Assembly (NCBI GenBank): GCA_002786715.1
Contig: PCTW01000043.1
Coordinates: 13,399-77,398, forward strand
Length of the DNA: 64,000 nucleotides
Direction of reading: 5' to 3'
Source: Bdellovibrio sp. CG22_combo_CG10-13_8_21_14_all_39_27
Lineage (GTDB): Bacteria > Bdellovibrionota > Bacteriovoracia > Bacteriovoracales > Bacteriovoracaceae
Of the stretch, positions 32,217 through 40,500 are shown piece after piece (position 1 is the first letter of the stretch; every line of letters starts with the position of its first letter). A program made the translations under genes and the position numbers. A model generated the notes under the pieces. The model did no database searches and was not told the origin of the DNA. It saw only the letters and a program-made list of their open reading frames with translations.

Positions 32217-32837
32217 TTAACCTCTTAAAAGCTTGTCAGCTTCAGCACGAAGTTTTTCTTCTTCAGTCTGAACTGTTTCACCTTGCGCTGCTTTTTCTGC
32301 AGCAAGAGCGTCAGCTTTTGCTTGCTCTTCTTTCTTTTGCTTAGCGAATGCTTCTAACTCAGCTTGCTTCTTCTTAAGCTCTTCAGCTTGGACTGGATCG
32401 ATAGCAACTTTAACTTTGAAAGTTGTTTCAACTCCTGAGAAGATCTTAGCTTTTACGTTGTAAGCACCAAGATTCTTGATTGGTTGGTCAGGAGTTAAGT
32501 GACGTTTTTCAACTTCAATTCCCTTTCCTGCTAATTCTTTTGCAAGTTCTGTCATTGTTACTGTACCAAACAACTTGTTGTTGGCACCAACACGACGAAT
32601 GAGGTTTAACTCAAGTCCTGCAAGTTTAGCTTTGATTGCTTCAGCGGCATCTTTTTCGGCTGCCATTTTCTTGCTTAAAGCTTTCTTTTGATTTTCTAAT
32701 TGCTTTTTGTGTGAATCATCAGCGATTACAGCAACTCTCTTAGGTAATAAGAAGTTACGTGCATATCCTTGAGAAACATTCACGAGATCACCGATATTCC
32801 CTAATGCGGGAACCTTTTCAGTAAGAATGACTTTCAT
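32217..32837 (-). CDS. rplI: 50S ribosomal protein L9 with C-terminal extension
   Basis: Large-subunit protein L9. The first 150 residues follow the family: MKVILTEKVPALGNIGDLVNVSQGYARNFL at the start, the connecting helix (ENQKKALSKKMAAEKDAAEAI), and the C-terminal domain (LFGTVTMTELAKEL). The chain continues for about 57 further residues, nearly all Lys, Glu, Ala and Gln, probably a charged helix, giving 206 residues against 149 in E. coli. It overlaps the upstream membrane gene by ATGA and has AAGGAGA before its start. Confidence 0.96.
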   Translation of the reverse strand: MKVILTEKVPALGNIGDLVNVSQGYARNFLLPKRVAVIADDSHKKQLENQKKALSKKMAAEKDAAEAIKAKLAGLELNLIRRVGANNKLFGTVTMTELAKELAGKGIEVEKRHLTPDQPIKNLGAYNVKAKIFSGVETTFKVKVAIDPVQAEELKKKQAELEAFAKQKKEEQAKADALAAEKAAQGETVQTEEEKLRAEADKLLRG

Positions 32838-33862
32838 AACATATCTCCTTCATCATTTTTTTTCTTAAAATATTTTCTAAAATTAAACCAAACATCGAAC
32901 AAACCAACTAATGCGATTAATCTCCATGCCGTAAACACAGTAAGGACAATCATTATGGCGCGAGTGAAACCAAACAGGCGAAGCTTGTTCAAAAGCTCAG
33001 AGAATACTCCGAAGCCCTGAAAGAAATAAAACACACCAGTACAGTAAATGATGGTTTCACCCCAGATTTCCGCTTGCTCTCCGTAAAGAGTTCCCCCTAA
33101 AAGGTACATTACTAAACCGAAGATAAGGCCCCAAACCATATTGAAAGGAACTCTAAACTCAATTAAGTCTTTTAAGACATAAGGGTAATTAAGACGTTCT
33201 TTCCAAACTAATGAATTACGCAAAATGATGAACAAACACAGCCAGAGACCAAAATAAATTGAACCAAATATTGCCATTGGGGCCATTGCGATAATCTTGT
33301 CTGCCAAGACTCCCGGTTGCTCCATGTAATCTCGCCAGATACGAGCTTCTTCTCCACTTCCATTCATAATTTCTGTGTTTGAAGACTTTACTTGTTCAAT
33401 AAACTGAGTCACTGCTTGGGTTGTTGCCTCATGGATAGAGACCTTTCCAAAAAAATGAGTTGTCGCAATTCCAGCAACAACAATGGCCAACATAAGAAGC
33501 CCTGCTACCAACATGCCTTTGATTGGATTCATCTTACGAATAATAATTTCACCAAGTATTGCAGCTTCAATAAAAGCTCCAGCAAAAACTGTCACGGCAG
33601 CAAGAGGATAAATTTGAGTTGTAAGTGATAAGACCAGCAATGCGCCGATTCCTAACACTCCTAAAGCCAAACCTTTTCCACGCCCATAAATAAGAATCGC
33701 CATTGTTAGAGGAACGGGGACAAAGAGCCAAAAAAGTTGAAAAGAACTTAAAGCTGCCGACATCAAACCTAAGAAAACTAAACGTCCCCACGAGAATCCA
33801 GTGGATTCGTTCTGTGGAGGTCTTGCCTCAAAGTATGTGTTGGTCTTTAAATTCTCATTCAT
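32834..33862 (-). CDS. DUF2232 (YybS-like) membrane protein
   Basis: Integral membrane protein of about 342 residues with eight or so hydrophobic segments; function unknown. Position between rpsF/rpsR and rplI and the segment order (RLVFLGLMSAALSSFQLFWL; LALGVLGIGALLVL; GEIIIRKMNPIKGMLVAGLLML; FGFTRAIMIVLTVFTAWRLIALVGLFDVWFNFR, read in pieces) fit DUF2232. TTG 33874 and ATG 33862 are both possible starts; neither has a strong ribosome binding site. The stop overlaps the rplI start. Confidence 0.75.
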   Translation of the reverse strand: MNENLKTNTYFEARPPQNESTGFSWGRLVFLGLMSAALSSFQLFWLFVPVPLTMAILIYGRGKGLALGVLGIGALLVLSLTTQIYPLAAVTVFAGAFIEAAILGEIIIRKMNPIKGMLVAGLLMLAIVVAGIATTHFFGKVSIHEATTQAVTQFIEQVKSSNTEIMNGSGEEARIWRDYMEQPGVLADKIIAMAPMAIFGSIYFGLWLCLFIILRNSLVWKERLNYPYVLKDLIEFRVPFNMVWGLIFGLVMYLLGGTLYGEQAEIWGETIIYCTGVFYFFQGFGVFSELLNKLRLFGFTRAIMIVLTVFTAWRLIALVGLFDVWFNFRKYFKKKNDEGDML

Positions 33863-33906
33863 TTTCTTTTTCAATCTCTTTTGCTCATTCTATTAAGCAC
33901 TAATTC

Positions 33907-34536
33907 TTAGCCTTGAGCGATTCTGTCAGACACGTGGCTGACGAGACCCATTTGACGGGCACGCTTAATAGCTGTTGTTGCAAAACGCTGATGCTTACGA
34001 CTTACAGCTGAGATACGAGCTGGAGAAATTTTTCCAAACTCATTGATCAACCAAAAGTATGAACCTGGATCTTTCCAATCAGCTTTCACTTTATTGGCGG
34101 TGTACCAGCAGCTCTTTCTTCTTGTGAATTTTCTCTTGTCTGTGTCTTCTTCACCTTCTTCAGCGTTGTTTGAATCCATGATTGAACCTTTTTTAGTTTT
34201 TGAAAAAGGTGTCTTGTAATTCTTAACGGCGTCAGCGATGAACTTTTCTTGATCAGTTACTTTGATGATCATGTTTTTCATGACTGATTCATTGATCCCG
34301 AGACGACGGATCAATTCTCTGTTGTTGTCACCATCAGCCTTGTACATGAAGTACAAGTAGTGACCGCGTTCTAAACCTGTTGATGTTGGTTGAGCAAACA
34401 AAAGTGTGCCCCAGTCATCATTCACAACGATTTCGCCTTTGTGAGCTTTGACTACTTCCTCGACCATAGTTTTGATTGACTTGATTGCCTCGTCCCCTGC
34501 ATCAGGACGTGCGACGATTGCCGCTTCATAAAGCAT
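33907..34536 (-). CDS. Ribosomal proteins S6 and S18 in one reading frame
   Basis: A single open frame of 209 codons encodes both 30S platform proteins. Residues 1-105 are S6 (MLYEAAIVARPDAGDEAIKS; GTLLFAQP; LRRLGINESVMK-like segment). After a linker of about 30 residues, residues 135-205 are S18 (RKFTRRKSCWYT; FGKISPARISAVSRKHQRFATTAIKRAR). There is no stop between them. Codon 120 is an ATG (34179) with AAAGG seven bases upstream, so free S18 could also be made by internal initiation. S6 and S18 bind each other on the ribosome, so a fusion is physically sensible. GGAGG precedes ATG 34536. I know of no such fusion as a common form. Confidence 0.9.
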   Translation of the reverse strand: MLYEAAIVARPDAGDEAIKSIKTMVEEVVKAHKGEIVVNDDWGTLLFAQPTSTGLERGHYLYFMYKADGDNNRELIRRLGINESVMKNMIIKVTDQEKFIADAVKNYKTPFSKTKKGSIMDSNNAEEGEEDTDKRKFTRRKSCWYTANKVKADWKDPGSYFWLINEFGKISPARISAVSRKHQRFATTAIKRARQMGLVSHVSDRIAQG

Positions 34537-34687
34537 AAAAACCTCCTGGACTAAACGGCCCGTACCTCTATTGGTAAGAGCGAGTATGTTAGGGAGGCAA
34601 AGTAACAGTAAGGGGGCGAAAAGAAAAGGAATTCTTCCTCTGAAAGAGCAAGAAAAGCCTCAAGATTTCAACACTTTACACAAGGCT

Positions 34688-37558
34688 TTAAGGAATCGTC
34701 ATCGGAATGTAGTGGAAAGTCACTTTGTCGGCCTTGTTAACACAGAGCATAGCGAAGCTGCTTTGGTCATTTTCAAGACGGGCCGGATCGAGACGTACGC
34801 AACGAGCAGGAAGATTAACCGATAGGGCCGCTGGCCGAGTCATCTTCCCATTAGTCATCGTCATTACGTACAAACGCTCACCAAAAATGAGTGTCGAGTT
34901 CACAAACACTGCTGGTACTGAACGATTATTTTGAGTGACGACTAAGGGCTCTAGCGTTTCTGAGAAATTGACTCCCGGAAAACTTGAATCGCGATTAATG
35001 GTGAGGCCATCTATTCTTCCCTCTTTGTCCACGCCATAGATATGGTAGCGCGCTTCGAGAAATGAAATGGATTCTTCATCGTTAAAACTAGCGATATGTT
35101 GAAAAACAGGATCACTCCAATCGCGAGTCACGAATTCTCTTCGCTCAAAATCACCTCTTTGATCAAGTCTAAAAAGACGAGCTTTAGTGCGATCAAAAAG
35201 TGTCATGAACAAAGATTGATCGGCATGAACTTGATTCGAATCAACAGCAAGAACCGGATAGATGGCATTTTGAGAAATGAAATTACTATCGGTTTGAACT
35301 TCGGTGAATTCAAATTGATCTGTCATTTTAAAATTAAACTGGTAATACTTTTTATCAAATTCACGACCGACGGAAACCAAGACTCGAAACTGACCATTCT
35401 CAATATCTGCGCGAGTTTGTGGTAGTGGTTTTTCCACTTTCATTTTATTGCGATAAGGAATTCTCAAAGTCTTTTTTATTTTTTCTCTAAAGTTATAACT
35501 ATCAACAATTCGCAAATCCATTGTCACTTTATCATCTTTTAAGAGAGGATTGAGGTAATAGATGTGATCATCTGGTACATCCGGCATGCGATCTAAGATA
35601 TCATCGGTATTATCAACTTCTGGCACAAACCATTCCTTTGAAATGAGAGGAACTTTTACATTGCCAAACTCAGCACTCTTGACGTTGACCCAATGAAAAT
35701 CATCAAGGAAACCTGCTTTTAATGGTAAACCTTCAAAAGTTGTAATCGGAAAATTCCAAATAGAATGATTCGCAAATAATGGCTCGCCGTTGTCATTTAA
35801 AAGATGGAATTGAAGATCTGTTTGCTCTTTACTTATAGCATAAACAAAATAATCGCCTTTTCCGTCGTTGTTGATATCGACTCTAAAAATGGCCAAGATT
35901 GAATTAACCAGAGGAATGCTAAAATTCTGCGACTCCATTTGACCATTGCGCTCTCTGATCACTTGAAATTGAGTATGGGAATCACCCTCAGCTTCTTTCT
36001 GCAGCAAAAAGTATTCCGGGAACTTTGATAATCTAAATTTATCTGCGATTGGCTTTAGCAAAGATAACTTGCGACCGTCCTTGATATAGGCCATTTGAGA
36101 AGCTTTAATTCCTTCCAACGGAAGCAACTTACCCTTTGTTTGAGATAACTCTTTAGCAAATGAAATCATGGTTTGTGATTTTGATTTGAAATCACCTGTC
36201 GTGAGTTCGACTTCTAAGTAGGTTTGTGAATCGAGTGCAAGGTTTTCTAAATGACCTTCGATCATGATTCGCGTTTCTTGACCAGACTTTAAATCGCCAA
36301 CTTCGATTTCAGATTGATCAACAATATAGCCTTTTCCCTTCATGCTAATTTTGGCCATGACAGAAGTAGCTTCGTTTAAATAATTTTTAACAGGAAGTAA
36401 GAAACGATAATGTCCATCCTCGTCGATATTTACTTCGAGAATATCTTTAAAGTCTGGTGCAACAAATATCTTTGGTCTGATACTCGTGGCTTTCTGCATA
36501 TCAATAAGACCGTACTTTACAAACTTATGATCGCGCTTATCAGCTAAATAAGAATGAGAAGATAATGCTAATCGAGCATAAAGTTCATCATTGGTGATTT
36601 CAGGCTCGAGTAATTTTAAAGTGGCGGCCAATGCAGTAACTAATGGAGCAGCTTGAGAAGTACCTTTCTTAACATCATACCCTTTGATTCTTAATATACG
36701 TGATTCCATATTGAGAGGAACAGTACTTACCATTCCGTCACCAGGTGCTAGGAAATCAACTTTTCCACCGTAGTTTGAAAACTCTGCAACTTCACCATTA
36801 TTAGTCATGGCGCCAATACAGATAACTCCCTTGCTTGAACAAGGGTATGTCGGGATCTCTTTGCTGTTATTTCCAGCTGCAACAATAATAGGAATATTTT
36901 TTTGTAGGGCGATTTCGATCGCTTTCTTCATCTTTGGAGTTTCAACTAACTTAGGCCATCCCAGAGACATATTAATAACATCGGCTCCGGATTCGACGGC
37001 ATAACGAATTCCGTCTGCGAAAACATCAGTGATCATTCGTCCTTTATAAACAAAGCCATTGGTTTCTTGATTCACAACTTTAATAGGTAAAATTTTAATT
37101 TGAGGGTGAGCAATACCTGCGATACCTATGGCATCATGATTAGCCGCTATCAAACCGGCCAAATGTGTTCCATGTCCCGTGTCGTCTGAAATATCAGCTG
37201 TCTTTTCCAGTGCATTATAGCCCCAACATGGTTTGTTATGATCGGTCTCACCTTCTTGGCAAACTTTTGAATTAAACCAAATACGTCCTTTTAAATCAGG
37301 GTGAAAGCGATCAACACCTGAGTCAATCAGTGCAACAACGACTTCGCGCTTGGGATCAACTTTCATTTGATCAAAAGGCAAGAAGTGAACATCATATCCC
37401 TTGATTCCTTCGACGTGCTCGCGAGTTGTATCACCAGAGGCTTGAAGAAGAACTTGTCCTTTATTCTCAATGTGCCAAAGCTTTGAGGCCAAAGTATCTT
37501 TGAGCTCAACGGCTTGAACGCCAAAAGAGAGAATGAGAGGGAGAATTATTTTTTTCAT
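34688..37558 (-). CDS. Large exported subtilisin-like protease (S8)
   Basis: 956 residues. A signal peptide (KKIILPLILSFGVQAVE) is followed by a short propeptide-like stretch and the S8 catalytic domain (about 70-390). The triad is Asp in VVVALIDSGVDRFHPD, His in DDTGHGTHLAGLIA and Ser in GTSQAAPLVTA; the oxyanion Asn is in VAAGNNS. The remaining 550 residues contain beta-rich repeats with a DxNxDGxxD calcium loop (VDINNDGKGDYF), resembling FG-GAP/VCBS elements. The start ATG 37558 shares a base with the stop of the upstream gene (TAATG), so the two are made together. Confidence 0.93.
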   Translation of the reverse strand: MKKIILPLILSFGVQAVELKDTLASKLWHIENKGQVLLQASGDTTREHVEGIKGYDVHFLPFDQMKVDPKREVVVALIDSGVDRFHPDLKGRIWFNSKVCQEGETDHNKPCWGYNALEKTADISDDTGHGTHLAGLIAANHDAIGIAGIAHPQIKILPIKVVNQETNGFVYKGRMITDVFADGIRYAVESGADVINMSLGWPKLVETPKMKKAIEIALQKNIPIIVAAGNNSKEIPTYPCSSKGVICIGAMTNNGEVAEFSNYGGKVDFLAPGDGMVSTVPLNMESRILRIKGYDVKKGTSQAAPLVTALAATLKLLEPEITNDELYARLALSSHSYLADKRDHKFVKYGLIDMQKATSIRPKIFVAPDFKDILEVNIDEDGHYRFLLPVKNYLNEATSVMAKISMKGKGYIVDQSEIEVGDLKSGQETRIMIEGHLENLALDSQTYLEVELTTGDFKSKSQTMISFAKELSQTKGKLLPLEGIKASQMAYIKDGRKLSLLKPIADKFRLSKFPEYFLLQKEAEGDSHTQFQVIRERNGQMESQNFSIPLVNSILAIFRVDINNDGKGDYFVYAISKEQTDLQFHLLNDNGEPLFANHSIWNFPITTFEGLPLKAGFLDDFHWVNVKSAEFGNVKVPLISKEWFVPEVDNTDDILDRMPDVPDDHIYYLNPLLKDDKVTMDLRIVDSYNFREKIKKTLRIPYRNKMKVEKPLPQTRADIENGQFRVLVSVGREFDKKYYQFNFKMTDQFEFTEVQTDSNFISQNAIYPVLAVDSNQVHADQSLFMTLFDRTKARLFRLDQRGDFERREFVTRDWSDPVFQHIASFNDEESISFLEARYHIYGVDKEGRIDGLTINRDSSFPGVNFSETLEPLVVTQNNRSVPAVFVNSTLIFGERLYVMTMTNGKMTRPAALSVNLPARCVRLDPARLENDQSSFAMLCVNKADKVTFHYIPMTIP

Positions 37559-40500
37559 TAGAGGCTCTCCCTGATCCAACGGCCTTCAAACTCACCTGAT
37601 TGAATTCCCAAATACTTCTTTAAAGTTTCCAATGGGCCATTCCAATAACGTCCTGATATTTCACCAAGAGTATGAGATTCGATTGTATCATTTAAAATTT
37701 CTGATTTTGTTCTAAAGCCATCAACTGTACCAAAGAGATAATAGTTTTTCTCACCGATGACTTTAATAAAGTCTTTAAACTCAAACCACTTTTCCATTTG
37801 GCTCGAGAGCTTGAGCAAGCAACGGCCATGTTCTGAGACAGAACGCGTTTTTTCTTTCTTACATGTTTGATTTAATGATTTCAAATTATCGAGATATCCA
37901 CACCTCATCATTTGCTCGGGCTTCATCATTCTATTGTGACGACGATCACACTCTGGAGAGAAAGCGCGGGCAGCTTTATACTTTTTGGCCATATCGTCAA
38001 TAATGCTATCGTCAAGGTTTTCTAATTGCTCAACTGCTGAGTCGTAGAGATAGATATTCACTCGAACATCAAAAAGTTTGAGTGACTTAATATCGTTTAC
38101 GGTGTTGGTATCGAAGAGCTTCGCTTCATATTTCTCATTAATCTCTTCCATCAATTTTTTCAATTTCTTCTCTGAAGCTGACCAGCCTTCTTTCTTATAG
38201 GTTAAAGAAATAAAAGGATCACGGACTTCTTTTTTATTCAAACTTTCATCTTCACCGAACAAGCGCGCTTCGTAGCGAGCACTTCTGGTTTCCGCGACAC
38301 CGAACGTGCTCTGACCTGGATTTTTAAATCTTTCTGGATCGAGTGAGATGTTGATCCCTTCTGGGGCTAAATACTTTTGGAGATAATAGTTGGTAACGTC
38401 TTTCAAAAAGGAGAGATAGTTGATTCCTGATTGATCATCAGACTCGATCGAAACATAATCGGTTTTGTTGCCTTTCTTATCAGTGATGGAATAAAGAGAA
38501 TTTCCTTTCAGGTACTTTGCTCTCCAAACCAAGAAGGCATAGCGTGTAGAAGTATCTTTATAATCATTTTCTACAACGAATGGCTTAGTTTTATATTCAA
38601 GCAATTCAGTGCTTCCACCTGTTAAAACTTCGTAAAGTGCATTGGCATTGCTGAAAAAATTTGGATTGGCTTCAAGGTCATTATCAATATTAAGGTCAAA
38701 TAGTTTAACTTTGTACTTTCCATTGGTTTGAGAACTTTCAAGTTTTAAGACTGGAATATAGTAGTTCACACCTGCAAAAACTTTGAACTCGCGGCCATCG
38801 CCTCTATCATCATAGACTTGAATGGTCTTGGCATCTTTGCGATAAAGATGGAGACGATTAATTGTTACGAGTTCCGTACTTGCTCCAAGGGTAAATGATG
38901 TTTCCATAAAGGATCCACCGCCGCTAACGAGAACGCTTGGAGTGATTTTCGTTGTAATAATGAGAGACTCGCCGACACCGAGGTTTTTATTCACTTCGGC
39001 CATCATTTTTTCGAGTTGTTCTTTCTTTTCTTTTTCGGCCATTGCACTTAAGTCGCTTTCAGAAGCAGCAATATTATAAAGTTTTTTCTTCAAGGAATTT
39101 TTAAGAAGGGGAACAATAATGTTTTTATAAGGTTGCTTGAATGTTTCTTTTAAAGATTTTACCGGCTTCAAGTGAGAATATGTTTTTAGTAAATTGAGCC
39201 CCGCTCTCACTGAAGCATGAGCTCCATATGCAAAATTCTCAATTCCGAGGTGTCCGCCAACCGTGATTGCTAGCCCAAAGGTATCGGCCAACTGGACCAT
39301 ATTATCTGTCCCCATGGTGTTGCCGATGACGATATCTCTTTGAGTAATTATTGATCCATCAAGAACTGGAGAAAACCAAGTCCCTATCGGGAATTCAATA
39401 AACTCACCAGTCTCAACAAAGTGATCTAGCCCTTCTTTAAATTGATCTTGATGAAACTTGGAGCGGGCCTTTCCAATGTCAAAGGCCGATAGTTTTTCAT
39501 TTGCTGTTTGAATCAGGCCATCGATTGAACTTGCTTGTAGTTTAGATAGTAAATAGAGATGGGTATCTCTAAAAGGTGAATCAGGAAGACCATGGGCAAA
39601 ACGCGCTGAATACCCAGGCCATTCTTCTTGAATCAGACGACCCTTCTTTAAAATCTTTCCATCACTGACTTCAGCATTAAATGAAATTTCACCAGCTTTG
39701 GGTTCAAAAATCTTCAGCAAAGCATTACGGCGAGAAATGATTTTCTCAAGCACGAGTTTATTAACAGGACTTGGAAAATAGGATTCATTGACGATTTCTT
39801 CAAAATCCTCTCTGGTCAATTCTCTCATTCGTCGAGACATCCAAAGGGCATCATCAAGCGTGGTTGAAAAATCGGCTTCTGTGAAATGGGGAAGACGTAC
39901 TGTTTTATTGTCCTTCATACCAACAATCCACGAGGTCTTATTAAGAGACTCGCCAATATCTAATAAAGCGTAAGGCAAAAGAACAGAACGAAGCGTTCTC
40001 GAAGTCAAACGACGAGGAGGAACACCCATCGCAGTATTATAATGATCAGTTTCTTTTGGCTCAAAAGCGATGACATCATAGAGATCAACTACTAACTCTT
40101 TATATTCTGGTTTGGTCTGCTCCTCAGGAATCCAGCGAGACGGAGCTCCATAAGTTCCATCAGGAATCTGGCGGCTTATAAAGAGGTCTCTTTCCTCGAT
40201 CGAGGAGAATTGGACTCTTAAATGAGGAATGAATTTCATAGCAGGAATTTTGAAACCTAGTTTTCTAAGGAGATTCTTTCTAAGCAAAGTTACGTGCAAG
40301 GTTTTCTCAAGTAAAATGGTATAAACTCTGTTGGCCTCACCATCAAGCGAAAGTGCATTGAATCTTAAAACTCCAATATTTGAACCAATGATTCCTTGAA
40401 ACTGAACTGTTTGATCTTTTGATAAGGCCATTTCATCTAGTGTTGGATCAAGTGGCCCACGTGTGTTTGGTCCCCACACTTCAGAAGGAACTGGAGTTAA

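Follow-up and report, generated by a model that had tools for sequence, protein, structure and literature searches.

Introduction

Ribosomal proteins S6 and S18 are a textbook pair that needs to dimerise before binding rRNA. In the window analysed here, i.e. the whole stretch of 64,000 nucleotides, their genes rpsF and rpsR form a single reading frame, which raises the question of whether the two proteins are genuinely fused and, if so, whether the organism produces one chain, two independent products, or a precursor that is later cut into its parts.

A single reading frame encodes S6 and S18

The locus comprises the following features:

33907..34536, minus strand: fused rpsF-rpsR gene, 209 amino acids, stop codon at 33907-33909 (ORF and Pfam)
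34207..34536, minus strand: bS6 module, residues 1-110, with PF01250 at residues 3-92 (AlphaFold model and Foldseek)
34123..34206, minus strand: linker, residues 111-138, with an acidic middle part; open in all fused relatives
33910..34122, minus strand: bS18 module, residues 139-209, with the Pfam match at 149-198 (PF01084, TIGR00165 and alignment)
32834..33874, minus strand: gene for a DUF2232 membrane protein (PF09991), downstream of the fusion
32217..32837, minus strand: rplI, encoding L9 (PF01281 and PF03948)

The initial annotation had described S6 and S18 as fused in frame, and this description holds, as the 209 codons run from ATG to stop without interruption and contain both complete domains, namely Ribosomal_S6 (residues 3-92, 63.6 bits against a Pfam cut-off of 27) and Ribosomal_S18 (residues 149-198, 54.4 bits against a cut-off of 21). 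With the NCBIfam models, the S18 half scored above the cut-off of TIGR00165 (53.8 bits, cut-off 38.75) and the S6 half just under that of the equivalog TIGR00166 (41.7 bits, cut-off 42.9). The predicted fused product has a mass of about 24 kDa. Neither a second S6 nor a second S18 copy was found in the genome of the window, which is 99.8% complete, the fused gene providing its sole matches to the two families.

An AlphaFold model based on 23 aligned relatives reached a pLDDT of 83.7 and a pTM of 0.80, with low confidence (pLDDT <50) only at residues 124-129 within the linker. In a single-chain comparison with Foldseek, the modelled S6 half matched solved S6 chains with E values of 1e-8 to 1e-6, including 1g1x and 1fjg, and the matched chains include those from structures of the 30S subunit and of the S15-S6-S18-rRNA complex. 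On the S18 side, K191, R192 and R194 align with K60, R61 and R63 of E. coli S18, which are RNA-contact residues of that protein (PMC4647458).

On the same strand, the fused gene is followed by the DUF2232 gene, rplI and dnaB, which is the usual rpsF-rpsR-rplI order except that ssb is missing. The L9 protein encoded here has 206 amino acids, of which about 60 form a charged tail beyond the Pfam C-terminal domain. Directly upstream lies a gene for a subtilase-family protease (34688-37579, minus strand), and nothing ties this protease to the fusion. We also considered a loss of modifying enzymes whose targets would be buried by the fusion. For RimK this idea was rejected, as a RimK-type ligase scored over the cut-off in the genome of the window and its presence is independent of the fusion. 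RimK-type ligases persist although the fusion leaves no free S6 C-terminus, the site that they modify in E. coli. RimI was over the cut-off in three Bacteriovoracaceae genomes versus 12 of 22 genomes of other families, and is absent in genomes with split genes, too.

The fused frame is a lineage trait of Bacteriovoracia

A first survey, in which 59 relatives were searched, revealed a single S6-S18 frame in nearly all Bacteriovoracaceae genomes. The survey of the class covered 129 Bacteriovoracia genomes, mostly metagenome assemblies, 119 of which gave a match. The match extended over the full protein in one open, stop-free frame in 110 of these 119 genomes, with the genome of the window counted, and the fused frame spans 40 of the 46 genera; as such, the comparison of rpsF-rpsR across Bdellovibrionota that had been proposed with the initial annotation identifies the fusion as a trait of the lineage. 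When the loci were read directly, S6 and S18 shared one frame at 107 loci, corresponding to 87 distinct proteins, and named isolates are among them, i.e. Bacteriovorax sp. BSW11_IV (L053), DB6_IX (L066) and a Halobacteriovorax marinus isolate (L085).

The other matching genomes fall into three groups. Three have partial matches (G008, G069 and G140), apparently at contig ends, and are consistent with the fusion as far as they can be read. Separate S6 and S18 genes are present in five (G001, G019, G025, G103 and G028), and the fusion is hence not universal in Bacteriovoracia. A single genome (G026, also L023 and L115) has one in-frame TAA in the linker, at a position where its relatives have a Glu codon, and no alternative S18 start was found between this TAA and the S18 core in G026 / L023. 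The TAA in L023/L115 may go back to a recent break, to a stop codon that is read through or to a fault in the assembly. Because cells ordinarily depend on S18, an erroneous base or readthrough seems likelier than a real split.

Outside the class, 104 genomes with an S18 gene were compared from other families of the phylum, and their longest S18 frame was 167 amino acids, compared with at least 203 amino acids for the fused proteins. In the nearest of these relatives whose loci were read directly, S6 ends in a stop codon and S18 has a start of its own. As far as sampled, in a survey of one phylum, the fusion appears to be confined to Bacteriovoracia. In the rpoB tree, the split lineages (G028; G019 with G025) branch off close to the base, in between two fused clades, although this placement is weakly supported. 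Forcing all fused genomes into one clade cost 6 log units and was not rejected (AU p 0.23), so that the tree is compatible with a single fusion event, a single event with reversals, or two events.

The linker is protein under purifying selection

Across the fused relatives the linker measures 18-34 residues (about 28 in the window), is abundant in D, E, K, G and S, and occurs in two types, 'PFSKxYxGS..' and 'NPNH..', which match the two main subclades. Estimates of dN/dS from 26 independent pairs of relatives were 0.093 for the linker, 0.112 for S6 and 0.049 for S18, and the linker is therefore protein under purifying selection, as are the two domains it joins. In relatives with separate genes, the S6 protein terminates close to the position that corresponds to the 'YKxPFS' motif, and S18 opens with an acidic extension of its own, so that the linker most likely descends from an old N-terminal extension of S18.

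One chain or two products

The main rival of a single chain is post-translational cleavage, according to which the fusion would be a precursor whose acidic linker is cut by a protease, so that the mature ribosome would contain S6 and S18 as individual proteins. A cleaved precursor would have the identical DNA signature. The linker is modelled with less confidence than any other part of the protein and would be accessible to a protease, and the two main subclades differ in its length and sequence. Processed fusions of ribosomal proteins also have a precedent in FUBI-eS30 (PMC8354635). However, no conserved cleavage-like motif is common to the linkers of both subclades, no candidate protease came to light, and the low dN/dS of the linker fits its retention, though it is compatible with cleavage as well. 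Taken together, we consider processing of the fused chain unlikely.

A second alternative involves an internal start codon:

34177..34179, minus strand: internal ATG (Met120), suggested as an alternative start of S18 in the initial annotation; judged non-functional as a conserved start

Two products would then be made, the fused chain and a free S18 initiated either at ATG 34179 or at another codon of the linker. The ATG is indeed present in the window, with AAGG about 7 bases upstream, and an ATG occurs within the linker of 46 of the 87 distinct fused genes. In contrast, the ATG of the window is absent from its relatives, and 33 of the 87 genes have neither ATG, GTG nor TTG in the linker. The Shine-Dalgarno duplex at ATG 34179 amounts to -3.4 kcal/mol, a value equalled or bettered by 23% of arbitrary in-gene positions, compared with -11.0 at the S6 start of the window. 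The same holds for the fused genes as a whole, where the median energy was -2.7 for internal start codons, -2.1 for the background and -10.3 for S6 starts, and none of the internal start codons reached -9, whereas the separate S18 genes of relatives have energies of -5.6 to -9.5. The missing codons and the background Shine-Dalgarno energies rule out an internal S18 start as a conserved feature, and we regard a free S18 alongside the fused chain as highly improbable.

Lastly, a sequencing or assembly error, in which a lost or gained base had joined two adjacent genes, has a negligible probability. A one-base shift in the linker of the window would expose a TAA followed by AAAAGG and an ATG, and the homopolymer-rich stretch near 34180-34200 would permit such an error, but the frame is uninterrupted in 40 genera, in isolates as well as independent metagenomes, with conserved linker residues, and the class-wide survey rules an error out for the lineage.

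An RpsF-leader-like element persists upstream of the fusion

Upstream of the S6 start we found one further feature:

34542..34584, minus strand: RpsF-leader-like 5'UTR element, conserved and covarying in relatives, with a layout of the RF02893 type

In E. coli, the RpsF leader is a translational repressor element that responds to S6:S18 (PMC4647458). The element of the window consists of a CUC (34582-34584), a hairpin (34558-34581), an internal loop containing CC and the Shine-Dalgarno sequence AGGAGG (34542-34547), all on the minus strand, and the GAG of the Shine-Dalgarno sequence can pair with the CUC of the leader. Nearly all fused loci have the same arrangement of CUCGC, variable stem-loop, GGGC, CC loop and AGGAGG directly upstream of the S6 start, and the hairpin recurs upstream of S6 in L002-L125. 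The stems of 76 parsed leaders had on average 7.5 contiguous pairs, compared with a mean of 4.4 and a maximum of 4.9 in 1000 trials with shuffled partners. Of 85 regions upstream of fused genes, 63 contain a stem of at least 8 pairs, a length reached by 5 of 1700 shuffled sequences; the stem of the window itself has 4 pairs, 1 mismatch and 4 more pairs. Stem pairs 5-8 occur as A-T, C-G, T-A and G-C alike, which represents compensatory change. This covariation lies in the inner stem, while the outer CUC/GAG is near-invariant, so that covariation provides no test there.

Owing to the variable length of the hairpin, a covariance model derived from a MAFFT alignment captured no more than the three outermost pairs, and it was left unused. 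RF02893 itself gave no Rfam match at E 5 between positions 34000 and 35000 of the window and none at the gathering score in 20 loci, with 110 bits for the E. coli control. Since the element lies under the Rfam thresholds, we refer to it as RpsF-leader-like and not as a member by model score. It is probably a Bdellovibrionota variant of the RpsF leader that RF02893 misses. The same layout is present in several split outgroups of the phylum, and the hairpin is missing in the split clade G019/G025/G103 (L034, L035 and L167).

Autoregulation had been expected to be altered by the fusion. The sequence lends no support to this expectation, as a conserved, covarying hairpin able to sequester the Shine-Dalgarno sequence of S6 persists upstream of the fused gene. 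Given that the leader is retained, the fused protein would still repress its own translation; autoregulation has thus probably survived, and the obvious candidate for its repressor is the fused protein itself.

Discussion

The S6-S18 fusion looks real, old and actively maintained in nearly all members of Bacteriovoracia, a class of mostly predatory bacteria, and no published S6-S18 fusion was found in the open-access literature. On the strength of the genomic comparisons, it is likely that this is a genuine, Bacteriovoracia-specific fusion, whose single-chain product of about 24 kDa enters the 30S subunit intact and represses its own translation when in excess. One mRNA region with one start site would give rise to a chain comprising an S6 fold, a flexible acidic linker and an S18 fold, the two halves of which would fold together as the usual S6:S18 pair. 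Because both halves would reside in one molecule, dimerisation would be independent of concentration and the ratio of S6 to S18 fixed at 1:1. We infer that the fused chain would then go intact into the 30S platform, and that any excess would bind to the RpsF-leader-like hairpin holding its own Shine-Dalgarno sequence, and hence repress translation. For the class as a whole, we lean, somewhat more cautiously, towards a model in which S6 and S18 form one covalent chain in the 30S subunit and pair within that molecule, and in which this chain also binds the leader of its own gene and represses it.

A linked lineage with a few split branches represents a natural experiment on why some complexes have their subunits encoded by separate genes and others do not, and it bears equally on the kinetics of 30S assembly and on autoregulation by a complex. 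The fusion is also a shared marker of Bacteriovoracia. In addition, it is a trap for annotation, as S6 or S18 may appear to be missing or mis-sized in genomes of this class.

Among known systems, the rpsF-priB-rpsR-rplI operon of E. coli resembles the locus described here in its two protein families, the gene order with rplI downstream, the RNA-contact residues of S18 and a leader before rpsF. It differs in having three separate genes, with priB in between, whereas Bacteriovoracia have one polypeptide. The leader of the window shares with RF02893 its position before the S6 start, an inner stem that opens with G-C pairs, a 3' internal loop with CC, and an outer strand that is able to pair with the Shine-Dalgarno sequence; unlike RF02893, it has a shorter outer helix and a different sequence. 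A fusion of rpoB and rpoC is known from Helicobacter, and there, too, two adjacent genes whose products touch each other in an essential machine became joined in one lineage, although the S6-S18 case concerns ribosomal proteins and a flexible linker of variable length. Finally, eukaryotes have fusions of ubiquitin with ribosomal proteins, which are processed by cleavage. These and FUBI-eS30 are similar in that a ribosomal protein is translated within a fusion, but their partner is non-ribosomal and is cut off, whereas both halves of S6-S18 are ribosomal.
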